A DNA stretch of 64,000 bases from Chloroflexota bacterium (GTDB lineage Bacteria > Chloroflexota > Anaerolineae > Anaerolineales > Anaerolineaceae), in contig CP069394.1 of assembly GCA_016887485.1 (NCBI GenBank), positions 1,240,001 to 1,304,000 of the forward strand. The letters run 5' to 3'. The notes under the pieces were generated by a model. That model was not told the origin of the DNA. It searched no databases and was given only the letters and a program-made list of their open reading frames with translations. The position numbers were made by a program, and so were the translations under genes. Shown here piece by piece: positions 1 to 35,143 of the stretch (the stretch's first letter is position 1; each line of letters opens with the position of its first letter).

Positions 1-1
1 G

Positions 2-13345: not shown

Positions 13346-13417
13346 GGGCGTGTAGCTCAATGGTAGAGCAGTGGCCTTTTAAGCCATTGGTTGGGAGTTC
13401 GAGCCTCCCCACGCTCA
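13346..13417 (+). tRNA. tRNA-Lys(UUU)
   Basis: A 72-base cloverleaf. The acceptor pairs GGGCGTG with CACGCTC (one G-U), the D arm is GCTC/GAGC, the anticodon loop is CTTTTAA with anticodon TTT, the T arm is GGGAG-TTCGAGC-CTCCC, and the discriminator is A. CCA is not encoded. Its 3' half is repeated at 35.1 kb (see the repeat entries). Confidence 0.95.
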
Positions 13418-13418
13418 T
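13374..13418 (+). repeat. Left copy of tRNA-Lys 3'-end direct repeat (putative attL)
   Basis: From the anticodon stem through one base past the discriminator, 45 bases match 35099-35143 at 41 positions. The last 26 bases (13393-13418) are identical. This copy is part of the intact tRNA gene. Confidence 0.75.
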
Positions 13419-13427
13419 TGGAAATTT

Positions 13428-13453
13428 CCCCTAAATAAGGGGGTTTTTCTTTT
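13428..13453 (+). terminator. Terminator after tRNA-Lys
   Basis: A short CCCCT/AGGGG stem (13428-13442) is followed by TTTTTCTTTT. It lies just beyond the att-like repeat, so if the island model is right it belongs to the island side. Confidence 0.6.
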
Positions 13454-13689
13454 ATTGAGCGTATATATAGGGGGCAAATTGATTAATGAGGGTTTCAGTG
13501 AAAGTTTTGGGTGCAGTTAGCATGGAAACCCTGCAATTTATGGACAGAATGGACATGAAAATTGTCCATACGAAGGGAATTTCTACTCTTTTCAGACTCT
13601 GGGTATACCTTTTAAGCCCTCTGTCGCGAGTTTAAATTTCATTATTGCCATTTTTTTAATGCCTCCGGTGGGCTACTAGGAATAAAGCG

Positions 13690-14496
13690 CTAAGTGGATG
13701 TAAATAAACCATACCCTGATTCCACCAATGAGGTCAGGCAAGTAGCAAAATGAGTGATGGGAGCACCATCCACGACATCATGGTCAAACACAAAAGACAA
13801 ATATAGGTATTCCCGGATCAAAATCTTTTCGTCAATCACACCTGGTTTCCGTACAATCCCACCTAAAGAAAAATAGAGCGGTTGGGGGCTGATAGGGATC
13901 ACCCACCCGTTAAAGTTTCCCATCATACCAACCGCGCTGATCCCAACTGTTCCTGTTTTTTTCTTGATATAGAATGGATCATGGGTAATCAGACGGCCAA
14001 GTGCGCTGCGGAGGAATTTTGGTATCCAGAGATATGACCTAGCAAACCAGGGGTTGGATCCTAGCATGATAGCCCCTTTTGCCACGGACTGTGACTGGGC
14101 AGAACGGATTTCGCTGTTAATCTGTTCAACAGATTTCTCGTTTGCTTTTCGCACAACAAAAGGAAGCGGGATTTCTTCCCCGTTGATGGTCTTTTGCACA
14201 GTGATTAGGATATCCACATCCTTAAACAGGATCATTGAGGTATGACCGTGTCTGAGAGCGTGAACTTGTGGGTTCTCGCTGACTGCCTGGGCAATGCACT
14301 TCGCCATCCAACCAGTAAAGGAAAGGCTCACACCCTGTTTTTCTTTATAGACGCGCAAATACTCTCGCGCTAGGGTGACGTCCAGTTCTAGTAACACCTT
14401 TACATGATGTTTTAATAACCCTTGCTCAACAACATCAATGACCAATTCCCGGATTTTGGAAAACGGCACCTTTTGATATTTCCCAATGGTATCCAT
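13690..14496 (-). CDS. Stand-alone 2-oxoacid dehydrogenase E2-like acyltransferase domain
   Basis: 268 residues covering only the catalytic (CAT-like) domain of dihydrolipoamide acyltransferases. The terminal FVFDHDVVDGAPITHF carries the His and Asp of the HxxxDG active-site motif. There is no lipoyl domain, no E3-binding domain and no E1/E3 gene nearby. It starts at residue 1 with the fold's own first helix (KIRELVIDVVEQGL), so it is not obviously a truncation. A free-standing trimeric acyltransferase, like chloramphenicol acetyltransferase in fold, is one possibility. It lies 10 bases after a multi-pass membrane protein gene; the two form an operon. Confidence 0.75.
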   Translation of the reverse strand: MDTIGKYQKVPFSKIRELVIDVVEQGLLKHHVKVLLELDVTLAREYLRVYKEKQGVSLSFTGWMAKCIAQAVSENPQVHALRHGHTSMILFKDVDILITVQKTINGEEIPLPFVVRKANEKSVEQINSEIRSAQSQSVAKGAIMLGSNPWFARSYLWIPKFLRSALGRLITHDPFYIKKKTGTVGISAVGMMGNFNGWVIPISPQPLYFSLGGIVRKPGVIDEKILIREYLYLSFVFDHDVVDGAPITHFATCLTSLVESGYGLFTST

Positions 14497-14505
14497 TATA
14501 TGAAT

Positions 14506-15261
14506 CTACCCTCTTCCAAAACTCGATTGATCCAACTCAATTTCAGTTTGGCTGACCACTTTTCGGAATTGGTAAATGTCGCGTCGGAACATAACGGCTA
14601 GAAGAATCGGAGCAAGGGTTAGGAAAATACTACCAGCGATTCCATCCACCATTAGAAAAGCAATGGGTAGACGGAAGAGAGGATCGATAAAGACGACCAA
14701 TCCGGTAATACCCGTTCCTACAAACATCCAATGGACCCATCGCCGAAGTTTTTCTTTTGTAAATATCTGAGCTGCAAATAGAAAGGATACACACATAAAG
14801 CCATACGCAACACCTTCGAAGGCACCCGGAAAAGAGCGCGGGTAAGGATACGCATACAACCACAGGGATAGGCCATCCGGTTTTCCATTGCTCAGGTTAT
14901 ACTGAACAACTGTCATCTGAATATAGTAGTTTACACTCATGAGAGTTGTGTAGATAACAGCGAATACAACTGCTAAAAAACTCCACATAATTTTCTCTGC
15001 TCCTGTCCATATATGCAAGCAGCTGATCATGATCAGGAAAATTGGGGCTAATAAGAAACAAGGAATGACCCAAGCAAGCAACGGTAAGGGTTGATATGAG
15101 GATACATAATCTGTCAAGCCACGCCAGGGTGATAACTGGATAGATTGATAGAGACCATAAGCTATATAAAACCAGATATTCAGAACTGCGACCAATAGGG
15201 CTGACCAAAAGCCTATGGCCACCGCTAACTTTCTATTGTCTCCCTGCTTGATGAAAGGCAT
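14506..15261 (-). CDS. Multi-pass membrane protein of unknown function
   Basis: 251 residues with about seven hydrophobic helices (starting near 14, 57, 86, 126, 151, 181 and 203). The N-terminus MPFIKQGDNRK is cytoplasm-like and the C-terminus is polar. I recognise no family. The ATG has AGGAGG 5 bases upstream, a strong ribosome site, so it is well translated. The E2-like acyltransferase follows after 10 bases; the pair may act together, for example acylating a membrane or envelope substrate, but this is inference. Confidence 0.7.
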   Translation of the reverse strand: MPFIKQGDNRKLAVAIGFWSALLVAVLNIWFYIAYGLYQSIQLSPWRGLTDYVSSYQPLPLLAWVIPCFLLAPIFLIMISCLHIWTGAEKIMWSFLAVVFAVIYTTLMSVNYYIQMTVVQYNLSNGKPDGLSLWLYAYPYPRSFPGAFEGVAYGFMCVSFLFAAQIFTKEKLRRWVHWMFVGTGITGLVVFIDPLFRLPIAFLMVDGIAGSIFLTLAPILLAVMFRRDIYQFRKVVSQTEIELDQSSFGRG

Positions 15262-15462
15262 GACAACCTCCTACATTAGGGGTGAACCTGATCTAGAAAT
15301 CTACATTCGGACACCATAAGTGACTAATCGTCTAACATTATCCGGGTTTGAATGGCATATATCCAAACCGTCTCCTAAATCTCGAAACAAGTCATTTATT
15401 ATAATTTTTTCTCCTCCAACGAATTAAAAATTTACTAATGAGGCAGTGATTGTGTTAGTTTA

Positions 15463-16950
15463 TTAATTAGTGAGTCTCGTCATTTTAAGCTTTGCCATTA
15501 TCCAAATTTTCATTAATAATTGTAATAAATCGTCCAATACAAGCGTTCCAACGATGATAGCAATATCTGGCAGAAATCCTACGAACCATCTCCAACTAAA
15601 TCCACGATTTAGAAAGGCGGGAGCAATGACAACCACGACTAAGAGGGTAATTGAAATCGACAAGATATGTGAAAGAATACTCATCCAGCGGTGCCGTGTA
15701 TCCAATGCCCTCATCTTAGCCCAACTTTTTGGAAGCAACACAAATTTGCGTATTGCTAGTACCAGGACGAGTATCCATAGTAGGAATAATCCCCACCCGA
15801 TCAAAACAGAAGACAAACTCGCCTTTGGAATAGGGTTATCAGTTAGGATTGCTGACAATCCCTTAAACATCGAGTCGTATTCGTTAAAATCTTTGAGCAA
15901 GTGATTCCCATTAATCAGCATGACAAAACATTTATTACTTTCAGGCAATATCAATACACTTGTGTGGAATCGTTCCGTATCCCCGCCATGGAAAATTTTT
16001 GTTTCCCCCGCAACCTCCGAAATAAACCAACCAAAGCCATATGTGCTCTGTATGGCTGTGTTAGGGGTGAAAATCATTTCGACGTTTTCAGGGTTGAGAA
16101 CGCGGACACTCTCCAACTCACCGCCATTCACTAAAGCCATCAAGTACCGAGCCATATCATTGGCGGATGATATGATGTAACCTGCAGGTAAATCGTAATG
16201 AATAAAAGGTTGATCAAGGGGTATAGCTAACATAAAAACTTGTGAAAAGCCCTGCGCGAGACCTGCTGCTTTCGCAGAAATTGGATCGGTAAAGGTACTC
16301 GTCATCTTTAATGGGGTAAAGATATTATCACGTAGATAGTCGCCATAAGATTTCCCTGATACAGTTTCGACTATTAGCCCCAAGGTGCTGTAACCCGGAT
16401 TGAAATATTGCATTTTAGTCCCTACAGGAGTGGAAAGTTCTGCTCGAGACAAATCACGAACCAGCATTTCAAGCGTTGCTTCCGGCGGCAGAGTTGAAAC
16501 ATAACTTGATTCGGACAGCCCACTGGTATGTTGCAGCAAATGACGTATTGTTATCTGTTGTGAAGCCTGAGAATCAGCTACTCTGAACCATGGCAGGTAA
16601 GTCTGAACCGGTGTATCCAAATCAAGTTTACCTTGCTCCACCAACTGCATAATCGCCAGAGCCGTGAAAGATTTGCTTTGTGAACCGATGTAAAATGGTG
16701 TGTCTGGCGTCACATTCCGTCCAGATCCAGCAGTGCCATAACCTTTACTGAAAGATATATTGTCGCCCTGTGTAATCGCCACAGCCATACCAGGTATATT
16801 GTAACGCTGCATAGCAGAGGCTAAATAATTGTCGATATCTACGAATTCTCCAACCGCATGTACCTGCCGAGGACTCCACGGACTAAGGATTGATACCAAA
16901 AGGAGACTTAAGATAAGAGTAACACCAGAATATTTCTTTCTTTTGAGCAT
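15463..16950 (-). CDS. Serine hydrolase (class C beta-lactamase/D-peptidase fold) with membrane tail
   Basis: 495 residues. A signal peptide (ILSLLLVSILSPWS) leads to a beta-lactamase-like domain with the SxxK nucleophile in YIGSQSKSFTALAIM, a Tyr-x-Asn-like YFNPGYSTLG, and HGGD in place of KTG. The C-terminal ~110 residues add about three membrane helices. Such penicillin-binding-protein-related hydrolases act outside the membrane on D-peptides or esters; beta-lactam resistance is not implied. AAAGGTGG lies 7 bases before the ATG at 16950, which decides the start over an upstream TTG. Confidence 0.85.
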   Translation of the reverse strand: MLKRKKYSGVTLILSLLLVSILSPWSPRQVHAVGEFVDIDNYLASAMQRYNIPGMAVAITQGDNISFSKGYGTAGSGRNVTPDTPFYIGSQSKSFTALAIMQLVEQGKLDLDTPVQTYLPWFRVADSQASQQITIRHLLQHTSGLSESSYVSTLPPEATLEMLVRDLSRAELSTPVGTKMQYFNPGYSTLGLIVETVSGKSYGDYLRDNIFTPLKMTSTFTDPISAKAAGLAQGFSQVFMLAIPLDQPFIHYDLPAGYIISSANDMARYLMALVNGGELESVRVLNPENVEMIFTPNTAIQSTYGFGWFISEVAGETKIFHGGDTERFHTSVLILPESNKCFVMLINGNHLLKDFNEYDSMFKGLSAILTDNPIPKASLSSVLIGWGLFLLWILVLVLAIRKFVLLPKSWAKMRALDTRHRWMSILSHILSISITLLVVVVIAPAFLNRGFSWRWFVGFLPDIAIIVGTLVLDDLLQLLMKIWIMAKLKMTRLTN

Positions 16951-17268
16951 TGAAGGACCACCTTTCAAAATTATTACTTTGTTTCACGAACGCAAGCTCA
17001 GCGCACAATTACAACTGCTTCTTTACCACATGGGCTAGTTCCAAGGCAAAAATCGTTAAGACTGTCTCCTCAACCCCTAGCACCATGAGAAAATTGAGCA
17101 AACTAACCAAATCCGCGAGTTGACTACCCTCGTTATTTATCCATAAACCGTTGTTATAAGTGCTAGCAATAAACAACAAAGAAAAATCAAACAAATCCAA
17201 AAATATCGTTTTCTTTTTTCTCTAAATTTTCTAGCGCATTCTTCATCAGTAATTATTCTTTATGGTTA

Positions 17269-18354
17269 TTATTTATCGTCAGCATGGTAAATCACACCTT
17301 CCAAAACATCCTCAGCCATAATTCGTTGAAACAATGATGGTTCTTCGAACATAGGACTGTGTGCAGAATACTCAAAAGTATAGAATCCCTTCACCGGAGC
17401 CTGAAGTTTTTCAAAATAATCCTTCGCCAATGAATAAGAACATGTATAGTCATAAATCCCATGAAAGAAGTAAACAGGTATGGCCAATTCAGGCACTAAC
17501 GAGGACAAATCAGTGATTAACATTTGATCCCAAACAACACTCACACCCGCTTGAGACTTGCCTCGCCACAAATTTATCTTCTCCATCAGGGTGTATTCCG
17601 GAATAAAAAGGGAAGGCAAAAATATACCTGTTATAACAGAATCCATTTCATGCATCGTACCTATCCCAAGCGAATGCATAGCTTGATCCCGAATTTTAAT
17701 GTACCCAGCTGGTGTACCGCCTGTCATTGAAACTGGATTTACTTCAAGTTTTTCCACCATTTGAGCGTTCCCATTTTCAATAAATTGTTCAAGCATGTAA
17801 TCATAAGCCAGTTTTTCTGACGCTAGCTGGTATGACATCTGTGCCTCCCCCAAATAGGCATGGTATAGTTCGGGTGCTTCTGCTGCTGCCTGAATCCCGA
17901 TAAATGTTCCACCCGAATGACCCATGATGTAGATCTTTTCTTGACCGAAGCGCTCTCGCAAGTAATTTGTCACGGAAAGGGTATCTGCGACAAGTTGATC
18001 CATTGTCATTGTCTCACGGGGGATATCAGGACTATACGATATGCCAGACCCGCGTTGTTCCCACCAGACGACAGTGAAAAGGTCTTCTAATCCCGTAGGG
18101 TATTTATTGGTCAGGAAATAATCCGGCATACCGCCATGAAGGTATAACAATACAGGATTGGATGTATCCATACTTTGGATAAACATCCCTTGCCTGACAC
18201 CATTGATCGTAACAAAGACCTTTTCTGAAAGGCTATTTGGAAGTGGATTCCCAGAATCATCAACGTATTGTTCAAGTTTCCCTGGACTTAAAGCCAGCAA
18301 CACGCCAAAAATGACAACCAAACTTATTCCAATGCCAGTAAAAGTTTTCCACAT
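17269..18354 (-). CDS. Alpha/beta hydrolase, proline iminopeptidase-like
   Basis: 361 residues with an N-terminal membrane anchor or signal (FTGIGISLVVIFGVLLAL). The alpha/beta hydrolase domain shows the oxyanion segment LYLHGGMPDYF, WWEQRGSGISY, the nucleophile GHSGGTFIG and a late His in EYSAHSPMFEEP. The HGG-P and WWEQRGSG phrases are like prolyl iminopeptidases. It probably works at the outer face of the membrane on a small ester or peptide. It lies on the same strand as two further hydrolase/lipoprotein genes but with gaps of 180 bp or more, so a single operon is not certain. Confidence 0.82.
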   Translation of the reverse strand: MWKTFTGIGISLVVIFGVLLALSPGKLEQYVDDSGNPLPNSLSEKVFVTINGVRQGMFIQSMDTSNPVLLYLHGGMPDYFLTNKYPTGLEDLFTVVWWEQRGSGISYSPDIPRETMTMDQLVADTLSVTNYLRERFGQEKIYIMGHSGGTFIGIQAAAEAPELYHAYLGEAQMSYQLASEKLAYDYMLEQFIENGNAQMVEKLEVNPVSMTGGTPAGYIKIRDQAMHSLGIGTMHEMDSVITGIFLPSLFIPEYTLMEKINLWRGKSQAGVSVVWDQMLITDLSSLVPELAIPVYFFHGIYDYTCSYSLAKDYFEKLQAPVKGFYTFEYSAHSPMFEEPSLFQRIMAEDVLEGVIYHADDK

Positions 18355-18537
18355 AACAAGTCACAGCTTTCATTATTTTTTTATTAGAAATTCGTTACGA
18401 TTCAATTATGGTTATTTCCTGACCTTTAATTTATCGTTTCTTCGGCTTAAATCATTAAGATTTTAAGCCTGGTCATTTACAGCATTATGATCCACTTTTT
18501 ATAAATTTCTTTTCCAGTAGCCGGTTAACAGTTTTGA

Positions 18538-19563
18538 CTATTCATTTGTACTATTTGCAAGCAAAAATGCATTAGTAAGTTCGACAATAAGGTCTGCATT
18601 TTGAATGTATATAAAGTGGTTACCATTAATAATTTTGTATTCTGCTTGTTCACCAATCCGCGCGAGATGATCATATTGGTATTCTTGTGGGGTCATATTC
18701 ATCTGCCTAAGTTGCGGATTGGATGTCTCAAATGTCTGTCTAGAGATCAACTTCAGATATGGTATATTTTCAGGAAAAGGCATTTCCATGGTTTCTTTAA
18801 TAAACTCTGCTGAATTTGCAATTTGCTCAAAAGTAGTAGCATTCATTGTGAAACCCGCAAAGATAAGCGAGTCTTGAATTTCTTTTTCTGTATATCCATT
18901 AGCAAGCAGATCCTGTTTGTTAATTATTAATGGCCCGAGAATTGAAGGGATTCCTAATACCTGCTGGATTTTTGCAACGGGAAGTATCGATTTCACAAAA
19001 GCTGGCATTTCTGCATAATGTGCAGTTGACGTACTATCCAGAGAAATAATTGCTTTCACTTCATCCGGGTATTTTGATGCATAATACTCACTATAAACAC
19101 CAGATATTGAATGTGGCATTAATACATACGGCGGCTCAAAACCGGCTTGTTTTAGGGCTTCCCTAATTTCTTCAACGTAGTTTTCAGTGGTTCGGGGTTT
19201 TGAAGTCTCGGTACTAAAACCCATTCCAAAATACTCTATACAAACCACCGTATACTTGGTACTGAGTTTTCGCATGAGGGGAGAAGAGTCGGCAGACGGA
19301 AGTGATAAACCTAATCCCGGTAGAAAAACAATTGTCTGTTCGCCTGACCCCATAGAATAAACATGCATCTTTCCATCTTCCACATTGACTAATTGGCCAT
19401 AGGGCTGAATATCTTCTTTTTTTGTTCTGAAATATGTGGAGTGAAGAATTGCTCCAATAAATAAGAAAACAGCAACCCCAGCAGCCATTATTCCAAAAAT
19501 TTTAAGTATCATTCTTTTTCCTTTTTTTGATTTGTGTAAACTTGCTTCATTTTTTATATTCAT
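18538..19563 (-). CDS. Membrane-anchored alpha/beta hydrolase
   Basis: 341 residues. After a basic N-terminus comes one membrane helix (FGIMAAGVAVFLFIGAIL) and an alpha/beta hydrolase domain: QTIVFLPGLGLSLPS, YFGMGFSTE, and a nucleophile elbow VLMPHSISGVYSEYY that reads H-S-I-S-G, with a late NGNHFIY histidine. The start could instead be the ATG at 19512, which has AAAGGA 6 bases upstream. It resembles the 17.3-18.4 kb gene only in fold. The substrate is unknown. Confidence 0.8.
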   Translation of the reverse strand: MNIKNEASLHKSKKGKRMILKIFGIMAAGVAVFLFIGAILHSTYFRTKKEDIQPYGQLVNVEDGKMHVYSMGSGEQTIVFLPGLGLSLPSADSSPLMRKLSTKYTVVCIEYFGMGFSTETSKPRTTENYVEEIREALKQAGFEPPYVLMPHSISGVYSEYYASKYPDEVKAIISLDSTSTAHYAEMPAFVKSILPVAKIQQVLGIPSILGPLIINKQDLLANGYTEKEIQDSLIFAGFTMNATTFEQIANSAEFIKETMEMPFPENIPYLKLISRQTFETSNPQLRQMNMTPQEYQYDHLARIGEQAEYKIINGNHFIYIQNADLIVELTNAFLLANSTNE

Positions 19564-19673
19564 TCTTTAATTGCCTTTTATCTATCCAACAAATTTATGA
19601 AATGTAATTCGTACCATCTAACCATAGCCATTGGTACCTTATAGATAGGAAAATTTCTGTAGAGGGGCGTAAT

Positions 19674-20297
19674 CTAGTTTCCTTCCGGTAATTCCAGCAC
19701 GAGATCTTCAGTGAATACAATTTCTCCCTGGGCGTCATAGGCTGTAATCGTCGTCATGTGAGATTCGCCATTGCGCACAATGAAATAAGTGCTCATATAC
19801 ACCTCAACCGCCTGCTCCTGGCCATCATCCCACATGACAGCGACCTTAACAATCTGTGGATCGCACACATAGCCAAAGACGGTGGAGTACCGATCCCCAA
19901 ATAGTGATGAATAGCCCCAGCTGCTGACCACGGTTATGGGCGCAGGATTCTCTGAGTTGTTAATTTCATGGCAGAGTCCAGCACCGTTATTAATTTTCCA
20001 GCCTGCAATTGAATTATGTTTGACCTCAAGCACCACTTCGCATTTCTCTTGACCAACTCCCTGGCGTTCGCCATCATATTGAACCAAGATCAGCGCTGCA
20101 TCATTATGTTCGATGGTTTGAATAGATTTCACAGAGTCTATTGTGACCGTAAAACCATCTTCGCGATTCTCTTGGATATAGCGAGTAGCTATTTCTTCCG
20201 GTGAGGAAATAAAAATCTGCAATTGTTTAGAACACCCGATTGATAGCATCGGTAGGAAAATAAGTAATGCAACGAAATAAATCTGTCTCTTAATCAT
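19674..20297 (-). CDS. Lipoprotein of unknown function
   Basis: 207 residues with a lipoprotein signal ending LPMLSIGC (Cys ~22). The mature part (ATRYIQENREDGF onward) looks like a small alpha/beta secreted domain followed by a beta-rich half with SSWGYSSLFGD and VFGYVCDPQ. I recognise no family. A decayed paralogue lies 2.2 kb upstream on the same strand (22.26-22.57 kb) and keeps gapless alignment over ~70 residues, so the gene was duplicated once within the island and this is the intact copy. Confidence 0.7.
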   Translation of the reverse strand: MIKRQIYFVALLIFLPMLSIGCSKQLQIFISSPEEIATRYIQENREDGFTVTIDSVKSIQTIEHNDAALILVQYDGERQGVGQEKCEVVLEVKHNSIAGWKINNGAGLCHEINNSENPAPITVVSSWGYSSLFGDRYSTVFGYVCDPQIVKVAVMWDDGQEQAVEVYMSTYFIVRNGESHMTTITAYDAQGEIVFTEDLVLELPEGN

Positions 20298-24367: not shown

Positions 24368-24443
24368 GATTCTTACATGCCCAACTAGATAATTTAGAAG
24401 AGAGATAAAACACAGAAGGTAGTGAAATTTGTCAACCTGTGTT

Positions 24444-25046: not shown

Positions 25047-25101
25047 TAATGGTCCTCCGCTTTTGTCTTTGGGACATGCTGCCATTAGTATCCACAATCG
25101 G

Positions 25102-26726: not shown

Positions 26727-29700
26727 ATGACCGATTTAGAGTTCTTCTGGCTAGGGCCACCAATAATCAAACGTAATACCAGTGCCGTTCACATGGAAAC
26801 TCGGAAAGCCACTGCACTCCTCGCTTTCATAAGTCTATCTACTTCCCCCCTATCACGAGAAAAACTGGCAACCCTTTTTTGGCCTAATTCTGATCAAACT
26901 CACGCACAGGCAAATTTTCGAAGAGCGCTTTTCTCAATTAACCAATCAATAGGCTATAACGCCTTGCTAAGCTCTACTGAAAGTATAGGCATTGATCCCA
27001 ACTCGCTCATTTTGCAGGATGTCAATACTTTCCAGACTTTATCGGAATCCGTGATTTCACATCTACATACCAAAATCGCCTCCTGCCCAGAGTGTATCAA
27101 TAATCTTGAGATAGCTATTGCCCATTATCGTGGGGATTTTCTGGAAGGATTGAATTTACGAGAATGCCCTGAATTTGATCAGTGGCAGAATATCCAACGA
27201 GTCAATTTTCAACTGACTTTAGCATCCAATTTAGAGAAACTTAGTGCTGCTTATACTTCGCTTAGTGAATGGGAGAAAGCGATCCAAATAGCCCATCAGT
27301 GGGTCAGCTTGGATCCCTTAAACGAAAATGCACAACGAATGCTAATTAAGGCAAATATTCAGGCAGGTTATCGTGGTGCTGCAATAAACCAGTTCGAAGA
27401 ATTCTCTAACTTGCTGCAAAATGATGTTGGATTCACTCCGGAAGAAGCAACAGTTGCCTTACTTCAAGAGATCCGACCCAATGCAATAGGGAAACAAGAT
27501 AAAAGCACTGAGGAGCCGGCGCAGCTCCCCCTGAAACAATCGGCAAAACAGCCTATTCTCAAGACAAAACTCTATGTACCCCATCCACGTGCGAAAATTG
27601 TCTCCAGACAGGGCTTAATGGATAAAATGGATCGAGGCACACAGGGTGCACTTACCATAATCAGCGCTCCTGCCGGCTATGGGAAAACAACATTAATTTC
27701 TGAATGGATCAGTACCCGCAATACCCAATCTCATCCCTGGGCTTTCTGTTGGTTATCTTTGGATCCGGGAGATAATGACCCAACACGTTTTCTAACTTAC
27801 TTGACAGCAGCCTTAATGAAGAACATCCCGGAATTTAGCTCAGAAACGCAAACTCTTCTTCAATCAAATCAACCCATTCTCGCAACCACACCCTTGTCTA
27901 TGTTGATAAACGATTTGGAAGAGCTGCCGAAATCAATCCTCCTCGTTCTGGACGATTATCAATTTATTAGCAACCAGGCTATCCATGAAGGAATAACTTT
28001 TCTTCTTGAGCATATACCACCCAATGTTCATATTGTGATCGCTACACGCTCCGATCCACCACTGCCCTTAGCACGTCTCAGAGCTCTTAACCAATTAACT
28101 GAAATCAGAGCAAGTCATTTGCAGTTCACCTCTTTGGAAACGACAGAGTTCTTAAATTCTATTTTTGATCTCATGTTAACACCCCAACAAATTCAGTTAC
28201 TTGAAAATAGAACAGAAGGCTGGATCGCAGGTTTGCAGATGGCGGCAATTTCCTTGCAAGACCGTACTGATGTCAACCAGTTTATTGAAAAATTCTCTGG
28301 TAGTCATAGATATATTATGGACTACCTTGCAGAGGAAGCCTTGAACAATCAAACTACTGAAGTCCAAGAATTCCTCTTACAAACTTCGATACTGGGCCAG
28401 CTGTGCGATTCATTATGCCGTTATATCCTTGAAATCGACCCACAGCATCAAGATAATGATCCGCAAACAGTCGCATCATCAAATTCGTGGCCTAAAGAGC
28501 ATTGCAAACTTGTTGACCTCGAACTGTCAAATTTATTCATCGTGCCGTTAGATGACGACCGTATCTGGTACCGATATCATCACCTTTTTGCAGACCTTTT
28601 ACGTTCTCGCCTAAAACAAAAGTCTCCTGGAATAATCCCCATTCTTCATTCCCGAGCATCAAGGTGGTTTGAAATGAATGGGTGGGTGGAAGAATCAATT
28701 AACCATGCTTTGGCAGCTAAGGATTGGGCAAACGCCACTCGTTTGATCACCCACCATTTTATCGAAATGCTCGATAATGGACAGATGGCAACACTCCTTG
28801 ACTGGATCAAGGACCTTCCACAAGAAGTCATCTTCCAGAATCCGCTACTCTGTGAGCAGGTGGCGGAAATTTATTCCCAAGCTGGCATGATTGAACAAAT
28901 TGACCCATATCTGGATAAAGCAGAAGAACTACTTTCATCCAAGCCATCTCAAGAAGAAGATGCCATTATGGTTCGGTCTATGGTTGCCATTCTTAGAGGC
29001 TTAAAGGCTGTTTGCATGAATAGCCCTGAGGAAGCATTGACTTTCACCCAACAAGCCCTGATCGAATATCCTCAAATGAAATTAAAGGAACAGGCTGTTT
29101 TACTATGGGTCGAGGGATGGGCCAAGCGGAATTTGGGGCAATTAAAAGATGCATTAGAGACCTTCACGAAGGCCAACAACATAGCGAGTTTAGCGGGAGT
29201 TTTCCTTCGTGATATCTGGACTGATTTAGCATTTACAAATCGAATGGTTGGAAATCTTAATCAGGCGAAAGAGATCCTGACAACCGCATTGGGAATTGCT
29301 TCTACTCACGGGATTAACGAACAAGGGAATTTATCGAGAGGGGAATCGTTCCTGAGTTTCATATATCTTGAACAAAACCAGCTTGATCTTGCTTTATTGT
29401 ATGCAAATCGGGCAATCTCTCATACCCATTGGTGGCCTAGTCACAATATTATTGCTACGGCATACACCAGTTTAGCTCAGATTCGACTTGCCCAGAATGA
29501 CCAAAGGGGTAGTTTACAGGCAATAGAGAAAGCTGATCGTGAACGGAAGAACCGGATAATGACTCCTTTTGTTCATACACTCGTTGAGGTAACACAAGTT
29601 CAAATCTGGTTGGCTAACGATGATTGGGAGTTGATTAATGAATGGTCTACAGGTTTGGTTTCAGCACTTCCACCAAGTGATGAAGAACTACCGCTGATTG

Positions 29701-30311
29701 ATGATTGTCTGGAAATGCGCCTGATCATGTTAATCCGTGTTTGGATAAATCAAACGAAATTCGATAGGAAAATCAACAGGTATTACAGTTGCCTAACTTA
29801 CTTAAATTGGTTGGAAGAAAATGCAACAAAGATTGGCCAGCTGAATTCATTGGTCGAGATACTATTTTTGCAAGCGACCATTTATTTCGAATTAAATAAA
29901 GTCAAAGAGTCGATTGACTGTCTAGAAAGGTGCCTTCAAATTGCGGAACCGGGTGGGTATAAAAGAATAATTCTTATAACAGGCAAGCCCGCCTATGAAT
30001 TATTATCTTCGACAATTGAGGACATAAACCCCAAATATCGCGCCTATGCGAAAAATCTTCTCAACGAATTTGGAGAAAACAAGGATTCTCACTACTCAAT
30101 TGCAGATTCACCCGAAACAATTACTGAACGTGAAATGGAAGTCCTCAACCTCCTCGCCCTGGGTTATTCCAACCGGCGAATAGCAGAAGAACTCACGCTA
30201 TCGGAAGGGACAATCAAATTTCATGTTCACAACCTTTTAGGAAAGCTTCAAGTGGAAAACCGGACTCAAGCAATAGTCAAATCAAAAGCCATAGGCCTCT
30301 TGGGAGAATAA
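26727..30311 (+). CDS. SARP/BTAD-MalT-like ATPase-LuxR transcriptional regulator
   Basis: 1194 residues. Residues ~1-250 look like a SARP module: a winged-helix-like start (KATALLAFISLSTSPLSREKLATLFWP) and a BTAD TPR region (IAHYRGDFLEGLNL). Residues ~280-620 are a STAND/MalT ATPase with Walker A APAGYGKTT near 315 and Walker B SILLVLDDYQF near 408. Residues ~650-1090 are TPR-like helices. The C-terminus is a LuxR HTH (TEREMEVLNLLALGYSNRRIAEELTL). It therefore has a possible DNA-binding domain at each end. It probably senses a ligand through the TPR region. It stands alone, with long AT-rich gaps on both sides. Confidence 0.85.
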   Translation: MTDLEFFWLGPPIIKRNTSAVHMETRKATALLAFISLSTSPLSREKLATLFWPNSDQTHAQANFRRALFSINQSIGYNALLSSTESIGIDPNSLILQDVNTFQTLSESVISHLHTKIASCPECINNLEIAIAHYRGDFLEGLNLRECPEFDQWQNIQRVNFQLTLASNLEKLSAAYTSLSEWEKAIQIAHQWVSLDPLNENAQRMLIKANIQAGYRGAAINQFEEFSNLLQNDVGFTPEEATVALLQEIRPNAIGKQDKSTEEPAQLPLKQSAKQPILKTKLYVPHPRAKIVSRQGLMDKMDRGTQGALTIISAPAGYGKTTLISEWISTRNTQSHPWAFCWLSLDPGDNDPTRFLTYLTAALMKNIPEFSSETQTLLQSNQPILATTPLSMLINDLEELPKSILLVLDDYQFISNQAIHEGITFLLEHIPPNVHIVIATRSDPPLPLARLRALNQLTEIRASHLQFTSLETTEFLNSIFDLMLTPQQIQLLENRTEGWIAGLQMAAISLQDRTDVNQFIEKFSGSHRYIMDYLAEEALNNQTTEVQEFLLQTSILGQLCDSLCRYILEIDPQHQDNDPQTVASSNSWPKEHCKLVDLELSNLFIVPLDDDRIWYRYHHLFADLLRSRLKQKSPGIIPILHSRASRWFEMNGWVEESINHALAAKDWANATRLITHHFIEMLDNGQMATLLDWIKDLPQEVIFQNPLLCEQVAEIYSQAGMIEQIDPYLDKAEELLSSKPSQEEDAIMVRSMVAILRGLKAVCMNSPEEALTFTQQALIEYPQMKLKEQAVLLWVEGWAKRNLGQLKDALETFTKANNIASLAGVFLRDIWTDLAFTNRMVGNLNQAKEILTTALGIASTHGINEQGNLSRGESFLSFIYLEQNQLDLALLYANRAISHTHWWPSHNIIATAYTSLAQIRLAQNDQRGSLQAIEKADRERKNRIMTPFVHTLVEVTQVQIWLANDDWELINEWSTGLVSALPPSDEELPLIDDCLEMRLIMLIRVWINQTKFDRKINRYYSCLTYLNWLEENATKIGQLNSLVEILFLQATIYFELNKVKESIDCLERCLQIAEPGGYKRIILITGKPAYELLSSTIEDINPKYRAYAKNLLNEFGENKDSHYSIADSPETITEREMEVLNLLALGYSNRRIAEELTLSEGTIKFHVHNLLGKLQVENRTQAIVKSKAIGLLGE

Positions 30312-30526
30312 CCCCTCCGATAATTGTTTTGAATAATTTGAAATTGGGGGTAATTGCGATATCTCTCATTCAAACGCACAACCTTATCTAAAGATAGTTC
30401 CAAACAAGCCTTCTAATATATATGATTGATTTATCTTGAGCGGCAAACGCTTTGACTGACCGTGACGATATCATCTATTACGGTTTTTAACAAGCTCAAT
30501 CATTGACCAATTAAGTGAGATCGAAA

Positions 30527-31066
30527 ATGTGCTTTCTCTACCTTCAAACAGATCGTTTTTGGATCCGCCAATGGAAATCTGACGATGCTTCAGATCTATG
30601 GCAAATTATGTCAGATAGTCGTGTTCATACCTACACTGGCGATTCGCCTTGGACTAAGGAACGAGCTAAAGATTATATCCAACTGATGCTCAACAAAGAT
30701 TTTCGGACTCTTGAAGTATTCCATGGAGCATGTATTCTAAAAAAAGACAATATATTAATTGGCTTTACCGGATTGAATCCTTACCTTCCAAAACAGCCCG
30801 AACTTGAATGGCAGTTCGGTGTGCCCTATTGGGGCCAAGGCTATGCAACTGAAATTGGAAAAGCAGTGATCAAAGCTGCGTTTACTTCAACAGACATTAG
30901 AGCGATTTATGGCATGGTGAATCCCCAGAACAAAGCCTCCATGCGTGTCATGAAAAAGATTGGAATGACTAATTTGGGATTGCACGAATTTCGAGGCGAG
31001 TTGGATATGATGTACAAAATCAACCGCGATATTTATTCCGTTCAATCTCCACCCAAGAATAATTGA
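30527..31066 (+). CDS. RimJ/RimL-type GNAT acetyltransferase
   Basis: 179 residues from the ATG at 30527 (a GTG four codons upstream is possible). Starts LQTDRFWIRQWKSDDASDLW, typical of RimJ/RimL relatives; the acetyl-CoA region is VPYWGQGYATEIGKAVIKAA and the tail reads NPQNKASMRVMKKIGM. It acetylates an unknown amine. The next gene follows after ~40 bp and five genes run in the same direction to 33.5 kb, suggesting one transcript. Confidence 0.85.
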   Translation: MCFLYLQTDRFWIRQWKSDDASDLWQIMSDSRVHTYTGDSPWTKERAKDYIQLMLNKDFRTLEVFHGACILKKDNILIGFTGLNPYLPKQPELEWQFGVPYWGQGYATEIGKAVIKAAFTSTDIRAIYGMVNPQNKASMRVMKKIGMTNLGLHEFRGELDMMYKINRDIYSVQSPPKNN

Positions 31067-31104
31067 TTCTTTCAGATACCCTATTACCTTTAAGGAATAT
31101 TCAT

Positions 31105-31932
31105 ATGTTATTACTTCGAAAAATAATAATTATTACTGCTTGTGTCATCCTTGGGATTGGTGTTATCGGCTTTTTGGGTTTGCAAATCAAGCCGAAATCA
31201 TTCCCTGTCTATCCAGAAAAGCAACAGGACATCGGCTCTATCGTTCTCCCGGAAGGTCTGCCTGAACCAGTAGATCGTTTCTATCGGACGCTATATGGTG
31301 ATGAGATTCCAGTTATTGAAACTGTGGTTATTCAAGGTCGGGCAACTATGAAACCATTCCTGAATATTCCCATCCCGGCCCGTTATGTTTTTGTGCACAA
31401 TACCGGAAAAGATTATCGGCATTATTTTGAAGCAACTCTTTTTGGGATCCCCCTTTTGAAAATTGATGAGGGATATATTGACTCTGAGAGCTTTTTCGAA
31501 AGCCCTATGGCAAACAATTACAACGAAGAAAAGATGAATCAAGGTGCGAATCTTGCCCTTTGGGCTGAAGCGATTTGGTTTCCATCCGTATGGATAACCG
31601 ATCTCAATACCCATTGGGAACCTGTAGATGAAAACACTGCATTGCTCTATGTGCCTTTTGAAGACAATGAAGAAACTTTGATAGTTCGGTTCAATCCTGA
31701 GACGGGTTTGATTGATTCTATTGAAGCCATGCGTTATCGAGATATTGGCGAGGACAGTCCCAAAATTCTCTGGATCTGTCGTAATGATAAAAGTGAGCAA
31801 AATCAGACTGATTTCATTTCTGTAGGATCAGCGATGTGGCTTGATCAAGGCAAACCTTGGGCTTACTTCTATACTGAAGAGCTGGCTTTCAACGTAGATA
31901 TCTCCTCCTTCCTCAACCAGCGTGGTCGTTGA
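31105..31932 (+). CDS. DUF6544-like membrane-anchored protein
   Basis: 275 residues with an N-terminal membrane helix (IIIITACVILGIGVIGFLGL) and an extracytoplasmic domain with PVDRFYRTLYGD, a strand-rich core (FVHNTGKDYRHYFEATLFGIPLLK) and FPSVWITDLNTHWEPVDENT. This resembles the DUF6544/DUF6920 family, which has no known function. AAGGA 8 bases upstream fixes the ATG at 31105; the frame before it overlaps the acetyltransferase. It is the second gene of the 30.5-33.5 kb run. Confidence 0.65.
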   Translation: MLLLRKIIIITACVILGIGVIGFLGLQIKPKSFPVYPEKQQDIGSIVLPEGLPEPVDRFYRTLYGDEIPVIETVVIQGRATMKPFLNIPIPARYVFVHNTGKDYRHYFEATLFGIPLLKIDEGYIDSESFFESPMANNYNEEKMNQGANLALWAEAIWFPSVWITDLNTHWEPVDENTALLYVPFEDNEETLIVRFNPETGLIDSIEAMRYRDIGEDSPKILWICRNDKSEQNQTDFISVGSAMWLDQGKPWAYFYTEELAFNVDISSFLNQRGR

Positions 31933-31978
31933 GGTAAACAGATATAAAAACAAATCAAGTTAATAAGGAATAAAGGAA

Positions 31979-32182
31979 ATGAAAACTATTGAAATCATTA
32001 TGTATCTACTCTCTATCTTGCTCAACATCGGTACCATCGTGATGAGCTTGCTCGCAATCTCCCAGGGTAGCCAATTTGTTTTTGGCTCGATTTACTTCCA
32101 GATAATTTTCACTGTTGGTGCTGTTGGATTAACTTTTACAGCGCTATTAATTTCTCTTGTCCGGAAGTACAAAGGCAACTAA
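31979..32182 (+). CDS. Small two-helix membrane protein
   Basis: 67 residues with two hydrophobic helices (IIMYLLSILLNIGTIVMSLL and IIFTVGAVGLTFTALLISLV) and a basic tail VRKYKGN. I recognise no family. AAAGGAA lies just before the ATG. It is kept because it is in line with its neighbours, 46 bp after one gene and 40 bp before the next. Confidence 0.55.
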   Translation: MKTIEIIMYLLSILLNIGTIVMSLLAISQGSQFVFGSIYFQIIFTVGAVGLTFTALLISLVRKYKGN

Positions 32183-32222
32183 ATAATTAAGTTAAATAAT
32201 TAATCATATTTAGGAATCCAAA

Positions 32223-32468
32223 ATGACAATAAACTCAGCAAATGAAATCATTGAAAGTGGAAGATCAGCTTACATGATACAGGTGAAAGACCACCTTGAT
32301 ACTTCCTGGACTCATTACTTTGAAGGCTGGTCTGTTAGAAACTTAGAGAATGGCGAAGTACTTCTCACCATCCCAACTATTGATCAGGCCGGATTACATG
32401 GTGTATTAAACAAGATAAGAGACCTGAACCTAATCATTATTACAGTGAAAAGACTAGCAGAGTTATAG
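32223..32468 (+). CDS. Small conserved-looking soluble protein
   Basis: 81 residues, soluble, with a strand-turn-strand-helix look: YMIQVKDHLDTSWTHYFEGW, then LENGEVLLTIPTIDQAGLHG and VLNKIRDLNLIIITVKRL. The pattern (ligand or DNA independent, ending in a predicted helix with I/LRDLxLxIITVxR) recurs in short proteins of uncharacterised function, often next to regulators or membrane proteins; I cannot assign one. AGGAA lies 7 bases before the ATG. Confidence 0.6.
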   Translation: MTINSANEIIESGRSAYMIQVKDHLDTSWTHYFEGWSVRNLENGEVLLTIPTIDQAGLHGVLNKIRDLNLIIITVKRLAEL

Positions 32469-32643
32469 AAAAACTGCTTAATACTTTTAATTACCAATAG
32501 GAAATACCAATTTTCTTTTTTCTTGAAGGGCGTAACCCAGCAGATATCCATTTCATGAGTGATGAAAGCGCACTGATGTGTTTAGGACCAACGAAAACAC
32601 TTTTTAATTATTGATTTTTTTAGAAAAGGACAAGGAGTCCACA

Positions 32644-33516
32644 ATGAAAAAGAGCATTTCTCTGACATGGCTAGTGCCAATCATAGTTATCTTGTCAGCT
32701 ATTTTGGCAATCGTTGGCTTAATCACAGCCAACGATGGTTTTGTTTATTCTTTTACGAATGTCCATGGTCAAACCATTCAAATGGACGGTCGCGGCATTT
32801 ATAAATATGATTCACTTCTCGCAGCAGCTGGTTTCAGGGGTACAAATGCCGTCATGTTATTATTTGCAATTCCATTGTTAGTCATTGCATATATTGCCTA
32901 CCTTAAAGGGTCTATAAAAGGTGGGATTTTATTACTTGGTGCTTTATTGCCCTTTTTGTACTGTGGTGCTTCCATGACCTTTTCCGCTGCTTTTTCCGAT
33001 CTCTTTCTAGGCTACACAGCATTACTTTCCACCAGTTTTTTTGCCACAATTACTGTGATATCGTCCATCAATCTTCAACTTGTCGATAAAAGAATCAAAC
33101 CAGGTTTCCCTTATAAAGGAATAGGCATAATCTTGATTATCGCGGGTTTTGGCACACTATTTATTTGGATGAGTGAATTGCTACCAGCATTATTTTCTGG
33201 TTCAGTACCTGAGACGCTTGGGCCTTATACAACCATGTTCACCCACGGATTTGACTCTGCGATTATCTCACCAGCCTTCATTCTGATTGGTATATATTCA
33301 CTTAAGCATAAACCTCTGGGAGTGGTGCTGGCTGCTCCATTTTTGATCTTATGTGTTTTGGTTGGCTTTTTTGTGATTGGTCAATCCATTGCTCAGTACC
33401 TGGCTGGTCTTATTTTCCCGATCAATGTCTATATTGGCTTGGTGGGTTCTTGGGTATTATTAGGCGTGATTGCAATTGGATTCACGATAACCTATTTTCG
33501 TAACATTCAAGATTAA
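32644..33516 (+). CDS. Multi-pass membrane protein of unknown function
   Basis: 290 residues with about eight hydrophobic helices and an extracytoplasmic loop after the first (ITANDGFVYSFTNVHGQTIQ, MDGRGIYKYDSLLAAAGFRG). I recognise no family. AAGGAG 7 bases upstream fixes the ATG at 32644. It is the last gene of the 30.5-33.5 kb run; the earlier genes are an acetyltransferase, a DUF6544-like protein and two small proteins, so the run may be one envelope-related operon. Confidence 0.65.
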   Translation: MKKSISLTWLVPIIVILSAILAIVGLITANDGFVYSFTNVHGQTIQMDGRGIYKYDSLLAAAGFRGTNAVMLLFAIPLLVIAYIAYLKGSIKGGILLLGALLPFLYCGASMTFSAAFSDLFLGYTALLSTSFFATITVISSINLQLVDKRIKPGFPYKGIGIILIIAGFGTLFIWMSELLPALFSGSVPETLGPYTTMFTHGFDSAIISPAFILIGIYSLKHKPLGVVLAAPFLILCVLVGFFVIGQSIAQYLAGLIFPINVYIGLVGSWVLLGVIAIGFTITYFRNIQD

Positions 33517-34185
33517 ATGATTAGAATAGGAAACCTTATGTTGGATCTCGGCTTTTAATCTCTCACATCCTTGATGTTTCATAAACAAGGATGGTTAGGA
33601 GAGATACCAGGTTTGTAAAGCAGCTTGATCAGAAAATCCAACATATGCAAATAATGATATCGAATATGGTATAGACAAAACCTTTACCGTCATTAAATCT
33701 GTCGGTTGCGCGTTCGAATCGCACCGGGAATGCTATTTATAGTCTCAATCCCTGTTGGACTATCATAAAGATTGGAACAAATTAAGGGATCAGGTCGCTA
33801 GTTTGTATTATTAACCAATAATGAAGGATAAACATTTGAAAACCTTCGGGATCTCCGAATAGGATCAGATATGGAAAAAATCTATTGCTACAAACTGTTT
33901 TCCTTTTATTAATCACATTCGAAAAATTCGTTGTTCATATTTACCCTTTTAATTATTTAGCGATCAATCTTCGATCGTGCAGCACGGAAATGTAAACATA
34001 CATGTGATTTTATCGTCAAGAAAATATTGTCAAATTATTTGGCATAAAGATCATCTTGTTCATAGTATTCGCAAAATAAATGTCAACCCCCTTGACTGAT
34101 CTTTGGATAGAAGACAGATTAATTAAATTCACCTAGAATCAAATCAGATTGGAAACTAAAGGAAAAATGATTAGGTAGGAGATTA
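33517..34185. other. 670-bp gene-free stretch with a tRNA relic
   Basis: AT-rich with no coding stretch of note. It contains an imperfect hairpin (33566-33593) shortly after the membrane protein gene and the tRNA-like 3' end at 33705-33734. Confidence 0.5.
33705..33734 (+). repeat. tRNA 3'-end relic of unknown parent
   Basis: The sequence reads as a tRNA T arm and acceptor 3' strand: a T loop GTTCGAATC with near-complementary flanks (GCGCG and CGCAC, one mismatch), then CGGGAATGC. No 5' half precedes it. It does not match the three tRNAs in this window. It could be an old attachment site. Confidence 0.4.
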
Positions 34186-34908
34186 ATGAATCAAAAACAG
34201 ATGGAAAAGCACTCAAATGGACAATCAATATTTTTTCACTTAATGCCTGGCATATTGATTAGTGTCTTTTGTTTCCTGATACGTCCTACTGTAAATAATT
34301 TTGGATATCCAGCGATCTTTGCCCTGGTTTTGGCTGTCATGTTTATCCTCGTTCCTACCGAACTCGGATACTTGTTGTATCAAGGAAAGAAAAAAACTGG
34401 CCATTATACATTAAAGGGAATAATTGATTTAAACAAAATGACCCCTTGGTGGCAACACCTTATCTGGGCGTTGATTGCTTTTGGTGCAATTGGTGGCTTA
34501 ATGGCTCTACTGAAACCAGTGGAAGTTTTCTTGAAGACAAATCTATTATTCTGGATTCCTGATCTCGAAAGCGGTCTTGATGGGAATTTCTCCAGAGCGA
34601 AACTCGTAGTAACTTATTTTCTATATTTAATATTTGTTGTACTTATTGGCCCTATAGTAGAAGAGTTATACTTTCGTGGATATTTACTACCCAGGATAAA
34701 GGGGAGATATGCTGCATTAATTCATAGCTTCCTGTTTGCAACATATCATTTTTTTACGCCGTGGATGATTATTTCAAGAACTGTAGGTTTTTTACCTCTG
34801 ATCTTTGTGGCGAAAAAGAAAAGTGTCCTAACAGGAATGATAATTCACATTTTATGTAACTCAATAAATTTTATTACAGCTGTTGTTTTCATAATAAACA
34901 TGAAATAG
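34186..34908 (+). CDS. CPBP-family intramembrane metalloprotease
   Basis: 240 residues, multi-pass. The family motifs are present: IVEELYFRGYLLPRI (EExxxR with the two Glu), FLFATYHFF (FxxxH) and IIHILCNSINF (HxxxN/B). The enzymes are CAAX-protease/bacteriocin-processing relatives that cut in the membrane and often serve bacteriocin self-immunity or prenyl-type processing; no bacteriocin gene is recognisable here. It has its own 670-bp upstream gap and is the last gene before the island's right repeat. Confidence 0.85.
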   Translation: MNQKQMEKHSNGQSIFFHLMPGILISVFCFLIRPTVNNFGYPAIFALVLAVMFILVPTELGYLLYQGKKKTGHYTLKGIIDLNKMTPWWQHLIWALIAFGAIGGLMALLKPVEVFLKTNLLFWIPDLESGLDGNFSRAKLVVTYFLYLIFVVLIGPIVEELYFRGYLLPRIKGRYAALIHSFLFATYHFFTPWMIISRTVGFLPLIFVAKKKSVLTGMIIHILCNSINFITAVVFIINMK

Positions 34909-35098
34909 TTATTGTCGTGATTTTCTTCAAACATAAAACACATCAGTGAGAAATAGAAAAATAAAAAAAGGCCTTTCATCCGAGAAAAGAGTAGGAGATT
35001 AATTTTTATATGTGATCCTTATTTGTGGTTTAATTTCACCCAATGAGTGAAAGTGACCTGACCTTTAAGATTCTTAACAAATTTCATACCCTGGTTAT

Positions 35099-35143
35099 GC
35101 CTTTTCCGCCATTGTTAGGGAGTTCGAGCCTCCCCACGCTCAT
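35099..35143 (+). repeat. Right copy of tRNA-Lys 3'-end repeat (putative attR)
   Basis: 45 bases with 41 identities to 13374-13418. Positions 35118-35143 (T arm, acceptor 3' strand, discriminator plus one base) are identical over 26 bases; the four differences lie in the anticodon-loop and variable-loop part. No tRNA 5' half precedes it, so it is not a tRNA gene. Confidence 0.75.

Follow-up and report, generated by a model that had tools for sequence, protein, structure and literature searches.

A 21.7-kb region downstream of tRNA-Lys(UUU) in the genome of an uncultured, anaerobic, Brevefilum-like member of the Anaerolineaceae was very probably an integrase-less genomic island, most likely inserted in the distant past by a phage-type integrase that has since disappeared. 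It spanned positions 13419 to 35098 of the window (the whole 64,000-nucleotide stretch analyzed). A preliminary description had proposed an integrase-less tRNA-Lys island with two copies of the tRNA 3' end as its bounds, and this proposal was borne out by (i) base composition, (ii) near-absence of the island from congeners, (iii) a displaced native flank, (iv) recurrent occupation of the locus, and (v) integrase-bearing elements elsewhere that used the same tRNA.

The integration target tRNA-Lys (UUU; anticodon TTT; 13345 to 13418, plus strand) was matched at all 74 nt (100%) in G006, G009, G010, and G015, and its 3' part was presumed to be supplied by the element (attL). Its positions 30–74 constituted the left copy of a 45-bp repeat (13374 to 13418, plus strand), and a displaced tRNA-Lys 3' fragment (putative attR; 35099 to 35143, plus strand) was its direct repeat. 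The two copies, 21.7 kb apart and in the same direction as first described, matched at 41 of 45 bases with the final 26 identical; the mismatches were located at tRNA positions 37, 38, 46, and 48, and they looked like drift of a dead fragment, since the working tRNA was unchanged in four congeners. An exact 26-mer would be expected by chance about 3e-11 times per 64 kb, and in the own genome it was found at these two sites only (≤3 mismatches allowed); the fragment at 35.1 kb was thus no dispersed repeat.

The island had 39.7% GC, versus 50.5% in a 420-kb genome sample in which the minimum among 21 sampled 20-kb stretches was 0.459. GC fractions by segment were 0.518 (1–13344), 0.397 (island), 0.458 (35144–43000), and 0.502 (43001–64000), giving one composition step at 13.4 kb and another near 35–37 kb, coincident with the tRNA copies. 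GC-corrected tetranucleotide distances of the 5-kb windows starting at 12501–32501 fell at the 95th–99th percentile of 84 control windows, and one window outside the island (57501–62500) was likewise at the 98th percentile. The island therefore deviated in composition from its surroundings, as the AT-richness noted by eye had suggested, and equal composition on both sides was not seen. The region had also been called gene-poor, a weak point: with ORFs picked by hand, coding density was 75% in the island, 93% to its left, and 79% to its right.

The island harbored 16 ORFs, with cargo as follows: 2-oxoacid dehydrogenase acyltransferase-like protein, beta-lactamase-fold hydrolase, three alpha/beta hydrolases, DUF998 protein, MFS transporter, two GNATs, BTAD/MalT/LuxR regulator, DUF6544 protein, CAAX protease-like protein, and unknowns. 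Pfam was applied to all 16 ORFs (4 without match) and PHROGs to 8 of 16; together with the recombinase searches below, they recognized no recombinase, phage, integration, or transfer genes, conjugation genes included. A decayed second copy of the 19674–20297 gene was seen by eye in the translated frames near 22.2 kb, accompanied by a 70% DNA repeat (20366/22612). PADLOC, run on ten proteins (six from the island), recovered no defense genes beyond TIR matches at 40332–41834 and, in the large regulator, weak HTH matches.

The absence of a recombinase, initially noted from the letters and ORFs, held for the island, in which neither a tyrosine nor a serine recombinase was found. PF00589 matched the own genome at C1:90181 (under cut-off), 750629, 1385709, and C2:5487, and nowhere in the island. 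Of 38 PF00589 matches listed in congeners, 18 were examined with their surrounding DNA, and 16 of these were built into a profile, which found no integrase or relic in the six-frame open pieces (≥50 aa) of the window. PF00239 (serine recombinase) matched 0 of 11 congeneric genomes, and its single match among 13 genomes searched lay in G019 on another contig. The congener integrases so examined (18 of 38) were rejected as partners of the island: some adjoined tRNA-Arg or tRNA-Gly, and the best tRNA-Lys matches at these loci were (i) tRNA-Arg genes, (ii) 18-nt D-arm-like matches beside two integrase genes (L068 and L077; E = 0.056), and (iii) 12-base matches, one of which was the core of the G013 block.

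The native flank of the tRNA was displaced. A position weight matrix (PWM) of the native 3' flank was learned from five single-copy congeners, G014 being left out after its sequence was seen, as its tRNA flank was non-native by eye, yet no 3' copy was found there. The 14 nt at 35143 to 35156 (plus strand), following the 35.1-kb copy, were identical to the flank directly after the G009 tRNA-Lys (PWM p = 3e-5), and the bases behind this copy matched those immediately 3' of tRNA-Lys in unoccupied congeners, while the window tRNA was followed by a different, non-native flank (13419 to 13450, plus strand; p = 0.11) with, by eye, a terminator-like hairpin plus T run. The same split was displayed by G012 (copy 15371, p = 2e-5; tRNA, p = 0.034), G002 (last copy, p = 3e-4; tRNA, p = 0.12), and, with two-base slippage allowed, G011 (copy, p = 1.4e-4; tRNA, p = 0.28). 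There were counterexamples: the G013 tRNA retained its native flank (p = 2e-5) despite downstream copies, and native flank was absent after G012 copies 18609 and 18736 and G013 copy 6060. The exact empty site predicted earlier, with the PadR/DUF2812 locus immediately after tRNA-Lys, was not found in congeners (in full, such a site would show TATTTGTATTTAAT and then PadR right behind the tRNA); nearest to it was G012, where PadR/DUF2812 lay 560 bp beyond an orthologous-looking att copy that a different 5.6-kb insert separated from the tRNA. A displaced native flank can thus support insertion in the absence of an exact empty-site strain.

Accessory DNA did not end at the right copy. It continued to about 43 kb, contrary to the initial view that ordinary genes resumed directly outside: accessory PadR regulator and DUF2812 genes (35170 to 36091, minus strand; arranged and oriented likewise behind an att copy of G012) were followed by further variable genes (36290 to 42610) for arylsulfotransferase, sulfotransferase, TIR plus phosphonate-binding protein, and DUF2975 protein. 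Relatives of window genes resumed in congeners at 43085 (G009) or 46435 (G010, G014, and G015), the first right-flank gene with a relative near a congener tRNA-Lys being that of a glycosyltransferase with HEAT repeats (43085 to 45193, plus strand).

To judge from the sequences, the tRNA-Lys locus is a hotspot at which congeners carry different inserts and extra tRNA fragments. Island DNA (19,891 of 21,680 bases searched) had matches in at least 7 of 15 congeners, none longer than 208 bp among those scored (18 first-look candidates per genome, making the match counts lower bounds); the flank at 43.1–62.9 kb had matches of >1 kb in 14 of 15. No relative with the same gene order was encountered, and the island was near-absent from congeners. 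Extra downstream copies of the tRNA-Lys 3' end occurred in 4 of 10 congeners with the gene found (G002, G011, G012, and G013), or at 5 of 11 congeneric loci when the window itself was counted; these counts excluded G001, G003, G005, G007, and G008 (66–79% complete; no full tRNA-Lys found).

Elements using tRNA-Lys were identified elsewhere: (i) G019, from another genus, had an integrase C-terminal relic between tRNA-Lys and a 42-bp copy; (ii) in G022, a tRNA-Lys was cut off after position 42, and some 90 bp away ended the gene of a 308-aa integrase; and (iii) the metagenomic phage contig L231 carried tRNA-Lys from position 24 to its end (49/51 to the G022 tRNA), with the gene of a 316-aa integrase at a distance of roughly 100 bp, and it also had excisionase-, replication-, and terminase-like genes. 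The two open integrase genes (another genus and metagenomic phage) shared only 30% identity. Two further candidates were set aside: L221 (G058), at first sight a tRNA-Lys half, was actually a tRNA interrupted by N bases, and viral contig L230 showed this core where its examined part ended, but no integrase was found in that part. By analogy, the G022 and L231 elements suggest a crossover in the anticodon arm; the earlier placement within the identical 26 bases is unlikely, because comparable junctions meet in that arm. In the favored model, the incoming DNA would have been a circular element bearing the 3' half of tRNA-Lys and, presumably next to it, the gene of a phage-type tyrosine integrase. 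It would have recombined with the tRNA, and in this genome too the crossover point probably lay in the anticodon arm. The incoming half would have made the tRNA gene whole again, and the native one, together with its own flank, would have ended up 21.7 kb downstream and there drifted at 4 of 45 positions. The integrase was then probably lost, rather than never carried, so that cargo remained between the two att sequences; a second right-end remnant may be present at 13506–13617, the 35.1–43 kb stretch would be other accessory DNA, and this order of events is the one we infer.

The alternative of a satellite that never had an integrase and was moved in trans, with a phage or other element that targets the same tRNA supplying the enzyme, was considered rather unlikely. 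It is consistent with the existence of a phage with tRNA-Lys attP (L231), with the finding that in none of 11 congeneric genomes did a Phage_integrase match share a contig with tRNA-Lys at a distance of 130 kb or less (some contigs short, e.g., 8.9 kb in G002), and with a sequence beside the core common to two window right ends and one in G012. The first of these, a dispersed right-end block (13506 to 13617, plus strand), ended at the CCTTTTAAGCC core and shared 78% identity with the block that lies to the left of an att copy in G012; it served to place a third, weak copy of the 3' part of the tRNA (13607 to 13651, plus strand; 27/45, not significant alone) and may be what is left of a second element (right) end. 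The second was a 15-nt right-end sequence (35085 to 35099, plus strand) that agreed with the end of the G012 block at 13/15 positions, a score reached at only 2 of 63,985 window positions. The block also had a copy without att end at G000:C1:1173718 (5 first-look candidates were scored per genome, so copy counts are lower bounds). A small G061 integrase (L170:10763-11350), adjoining a relative of this block, was rejected as the missing recombinase: G061 blocks occurred at several places without it, and its relic in the own genome (G000:C1:2036116) had no block adjoining. The block was treated as a dispersed repeat because the G061 integrase and block occurred apart. The right-end motif also matched, with two mismatches, at G000:C1:2266287, a site that looked unrelated, and neither this motif nor the exact tRNA 3' end matched in viral contigs. 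Against a satellite, no packaging, excision, or replication genes were recognized (Pfam, 16 ORFs; PHROGs, 8/16), and the decayed integrase inside the G019 insert favors loss over never having had one. An equally doubtful extension would make the tRNA-Lys inserts of the genus one integrase-less satellite lineage with a common right end (13506/35085/G012), integrated in trans by phages of the L231/G022 kind; one conserved tRNA would then serve as a communal cargo dock.

An origin without integration was very improbable, whether the tRNA 3' end had been duplicated (segmentally or in tandem) or homologous exchange had recurred at a variable locus. Small duplications do occur at tRNA-Lys, as G002 contained tandemly arranged 68-bp units that include the tRNA 3' end, and the native flank of the G013 tRNA also fits; however, the 35.1-kb copy began at the anticodon arm and carried the native flank, the flank of the tRNA was new, and the composition step coincided with the copies. 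An assembly or binning chimera joining foreign DNA at the tRNA repeat, conceivable in a 2-contig draft genome with 4.6% estimated contamination and with two G006 contigs ending at the tRNA, was just as improbable, as both junctions were internal to a 2.7-Mb contig and the right one had a counterpart of this type in G012, likewise followed by PadR/DUF2812.

The favored reading, an island whose phage-type integrase was lost, documents a tRNA-Lys integration hotspot for Anaerolineaceae, a group known mostly from metagenomes, and names candidate autonomous elements (G022 integrase and L231) for excision tests of integrase-less islands. No paper on Brevefilum and genomic islands was found, and Anaerolineae went unmentioned among the matches listed in a wider search. 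The island is of a known type, an integrase-less tRNA island resembling a cis-mobilizable element (CIME), and is a new case in a little-studied group. Dehalococcoides belongs to the same phylum as the host. Its ssrA islands, as characterized in PMC3146451, are arranged in tandem, with the RNA gene and directly repeated copies of its 3' end as boundaries, and 15 without an integration module were suggested to be possible CIMEs; they share with the present island the RNA-gene repeats, low GC, and strain-specific cargo. They differ in target (tmRNA T loop of ssrA versus tRNA-Lys) and enzyme (CcrB-type serine recombinase versus tyrosine recombinases in the comparable elements here), and the present island had neither integration at ssrA nor a DsiB-type serine recombinase module. 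As in Islander tDNA islands, an intact regenerated tRNA lay at one end and a displaced same-orientation 3' fragment at the other, and anticodon-centered crossover is one of the two site classes tabulated there (PMC4383910); Islander tests for an integrase gene within the island (PMC4383910), and the present one, in which none was found, would be filtered out. CIMEs, as reviewed in PMC5704250, are att-bounded cargo without integration or transfer genes, with accretion with other elements at the end of the target gene and a streptococcal tRNA-Lys example. For the present island, known from sequence, no ICE/IME parent was found, the integrases of relatives pointed to the phage type, and the only related element with clear viral genes was a phage; like CIMEs, it consisted of cargo between apparently retained attL and attR, showed no recognizable integration or transfer genes, and had other elements accreted at its target gene.

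The tRNA-Lys(TTT) gene was located by ARAGORN at 13345–13418, and its positions 30–74 were repeated in the same direction at 35099–35143 with 41/45 identity and a perfect match over the last 26 bases, bearing out the proposed tRNA-Lys 3′ repeat 21.7 kb apart; the differences fell at tRNA positions 37, 38, 46, and 48. The 26-mer (≤3 mismatches) was found at two sites only in the whole genome, the tRNA-Lys and the 35.1-kb copy, and so a dispersed repeat, named in the preliminary description as a ground for rejecting an island, was dismissed. A weak third copy of the tRNA 3′ part at 13607–13651 (27/45) was not significant alone, because unrelated window positions reached up to 25/45.

The island (13419–35098) had a GC content of 39.7% over 21.7 kb versus 50.5% across 420 kb sampled from its genome, in which 21 stretches of 20 kb spanned 45.9–54.2%; its GC-corrected tetranucleotide distance lay at the 95th–99th percentile of 84 control windows and reached normal values again at ~35–40 kb, and one window outside the island, 57501–62500, was equally high. 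The AT richness previously judged by eye was confirmed. The 16 accepted island ORFs were of accessory types (12 with and four without a Pfam match), including an acyltransferase-like protein, a beta-lactamase-fold hydrolase, three alpha/beta hydrolases, DUF998, an MFS transporter, two GNATs, a large BTAD/MalT/LuxR regulator, DUF6544, and a CAAX-protease-like protein. Coding density, from hand-picked ORFs, was 75% in the island, 93% in the left flank, and 79% in the right flank, and thus the wording "gene-poor" was true against the left flank but not the right. When 19,891 of the 21,680 island bases were used as the query, DNA matches of at most 208 bp were found in at least seven of 15 congeners (G001–G015, Brevefilum-like Anaerolineaceae), while the same search with the flank at 43.1–62.9 kb gave >1-kb matches in 14/15, the fifteenth, G004 (69% complete), giving short pieces only among the matches listed. 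Just within the island right end, 35001–35054 had a 54–63-bp counterpart in G012, G006, and G011 at 87–94% identity, possibly a small dispersed repeat; another short dispersed repeat (33751–33796) was common to several sites in G013 and G012.

Upstream of tRNA-Lys, a relative of the window gene starting at 9191 was present in eight congeners (G004, G006, G009, G010, G012, G013, G014, and G015), while the G002 and G011 contigs started too near tRNA-Lys to be judged. Downstream, window genes 43085 and 46435 were 29.7 and 33 kb from tRNA-Lys, and relatives of window genes resumed at different distances from it: (i) 1.9 kb (43085) in G009 and 1.8 kb (49206) in G011; (ii) 3.9, 5.2, and 5.7 kb (46435) in G015, G010, and G014, respectively; (iii) 11.2 kb (48750) and 16.2 kb (46435) in G013; and (iv) 12.2 kb in G006 and 23.4 kb (51054), beyond PadR/DUF2812, in G012. 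G004 had no downstream relative within 31 kb of tRNA-Lys, and in the 8 kb examined in G002 the sole match was a weak one (33%), to 34186.

The native flank (18 bases after tRNA-Lys) was modelled as a position weight matrix from the five single-copy congeners G004, G006, G009, G010, and G015, with exclusion of G014, whose flank appeared different. Scoring with this matrix gave p = 3e-5 downstream of the 35.1-kb copy and p = 0.11 downstream of the tRNA-Lys of the window itself, indicating that the native flank had moved from the tRNA to the copy, where it now lies as integration predicts; 14 bases of this flank were identical to G009. The same inversion of flanks was found in G012 (copy 15371), G002 (last copy), and G011 (two bases of slippage allowed), but by the matrix it failed for G012 copies 18609 and 18736 and G013 copy 6060. 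Nor did it apply to G013, with the native flank staying at the tRNA (p = 2e-5) and appearing weakly at copy 14482 (p = 0.008).

Extra 3′-end copies were found downstream of tRNA-Lys in four (G002, G011, G012, and G013) of the ten congeners with tRNA-Lys found. G013 had a second ARAGORN-accepted tRNA-Lys(UUU), 85% identical and 1 kb on (L037:13871–13942 and 14937–15008), possibly an element-borne arrival. The preliminary description expected PadR/DUF2812 directly after the tRNA at an empty site. This exact form was not found; in the nearest case, G012, PadR and DUF2812 lay 560 bp beyond copy 15371, arranged and oriented as at window 35170–36091, but the 5.6 kb before that copy differed, a 63-bp piece alone being common with the window island among the matches listed. 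DUF2812 is itself accessory, with close relatives in the own genome, G012, and G013 and a distant one in G001 among 16 genomes of the genus, and a 448-aa gene at 37560 was present in 1/61 genomes, namely the own one; the variable region therefore runs on to ~43 kb, and the statement that ordinary genes resume outside was wrong for 35.1–43 kb. Within this region, the protein encoded at 40332–41834 was a fusion of a TIR domain with a phosphonate-binding (periplasmic substrate-binding) domain, and PADLOC matched it weakly to defence proteins that carry TIR domains. Short tRNA-Lys copies that run from the T loop onward, with a hairpin-like stretch and the AGGGG(A)CRATGT motif in front of them, were observed in G002 (L051:1045–1180, two 68-bp tandem units), G011 (L046:14217–14234, minus strand, plus adjacent bases), and G012 (L034:18654–18755), and they may reflect another mode of integration into this tRNA.

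Of the 15 bases up to and including 35099, 13 matched those left of G012 copy 18609, a level reached at only 2/63,985 window positions; the second site adjoined the weak third copy at 13607 and extended leftward into a block (13506–13617) with 78% identity in G012. Relatives of this block were present in at least four of 147 genomes of the family: G012, G013, the own genome (C1:1173718, without the att end), and the further family genome G061 (shorter form). G013 carried the block plus the CTTTTAAGCC core alone, apart from any tRNA-Lys (L058:19192–19369; G013:C3:1489192–1489369), perhaps as an att site that has not recombined, or else as a secondary one. The window block is very tentatively taken for one end of another element, nearly all of which has been deleted. 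G061 (L170:10540–11350, L171, L172, and L173) harbored dispersed copies of GGTGCAATTTGGTGCAG...ATGGACACAATGGACAG, one directly preceding the gene for a 195-aa single-domain tyrosine recombinase; copy pairs 1.3 kb (one member variant) and 5.9 kb apart had ORFs between them, a faintly cassette-like arrangement.

Pfam Phage_integrase matches in the own genome were located at C1:90181, 750629, and 1385709 and C2:5487, none within the island (C1:1253419–1275098); a profile from 16 integrases of the genus had no match in six-frame open pieces (≥50 aa) of the window, and the claimed lack of a recombinase held in these searches. Pfam Resolvase had no match in 11/11 congeneric genomes, and a PHROGs search with ten window proteins (eight from the island) matched only 34186, weakly, to a family of unknown function.

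Relatives pointed to the mechanism. In G019, from another genus of the family, a broken integrase C-terminus that shared 51% identity with a G013 integrase (63 residues) lay between tRNA-Lys and its 42-bp copy, 3.4 kb off. In G022 (also another genus), an open 308-aa integrase gene faced the tRNA and ended ~90 bp past a broken tRNA-Lys, intact to position 42, with a whole tRNA-Lys elsewhere in the genome; three ORFs beyond this integrase had no PHROG match, making a prophage label a guess. The metagenomic viral contig L231 (IMGVR_UViG_3300018063_000516) contained tRNA-Lys positions 24 to end (49/51 identical to the G022 gene), with a 316-aa integrase gene ~100 bp away, plus excisionase-, replication-initiation-, and terminase-like genes; its integrase had its best match within the compared set in that of G022 (30% identity). 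The L231 fragment and the G022 junction (2–42) overlapped in the anticodon arm only, and tRNA homology began at positions 28–30 in the window copy and G012 copies 15371 and 18609, so that crossover would most likely have occurred in the anticodon arm; its earlier placement within the identical 26 bases is unlikely. The four mismatches would be drift of the dead 35.1-kb fragment, since the working tRNA-Lys was identical in four congeners.

The observation is genuine, has good support, and is of an ordinary kind; the new parts are local, namely the host group, the hotspot, and the candidate autonomous elements. A literature search for Brevefilum and genomic islands found no paper, and in a wider search Anaerolineae were unmentioned among the matches listed. 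Islander (PMC4383910) gives sublocation classes for integration into tRNA genes, and its definition of a tRNA island covers the arrangement save for the absent integrase; the arrangement likewise fits the description of cis-mobilizable elements (PMC5704250), with att function and ICE/IME origin being putative. The closest counterpart within the phylum is the Dehalococcoides ssrA islands, 15 of which are without an integration module (PMC3146451); those islands use ssrA and a serine recombinase, whereas the island here lies at tRNA-Lys.
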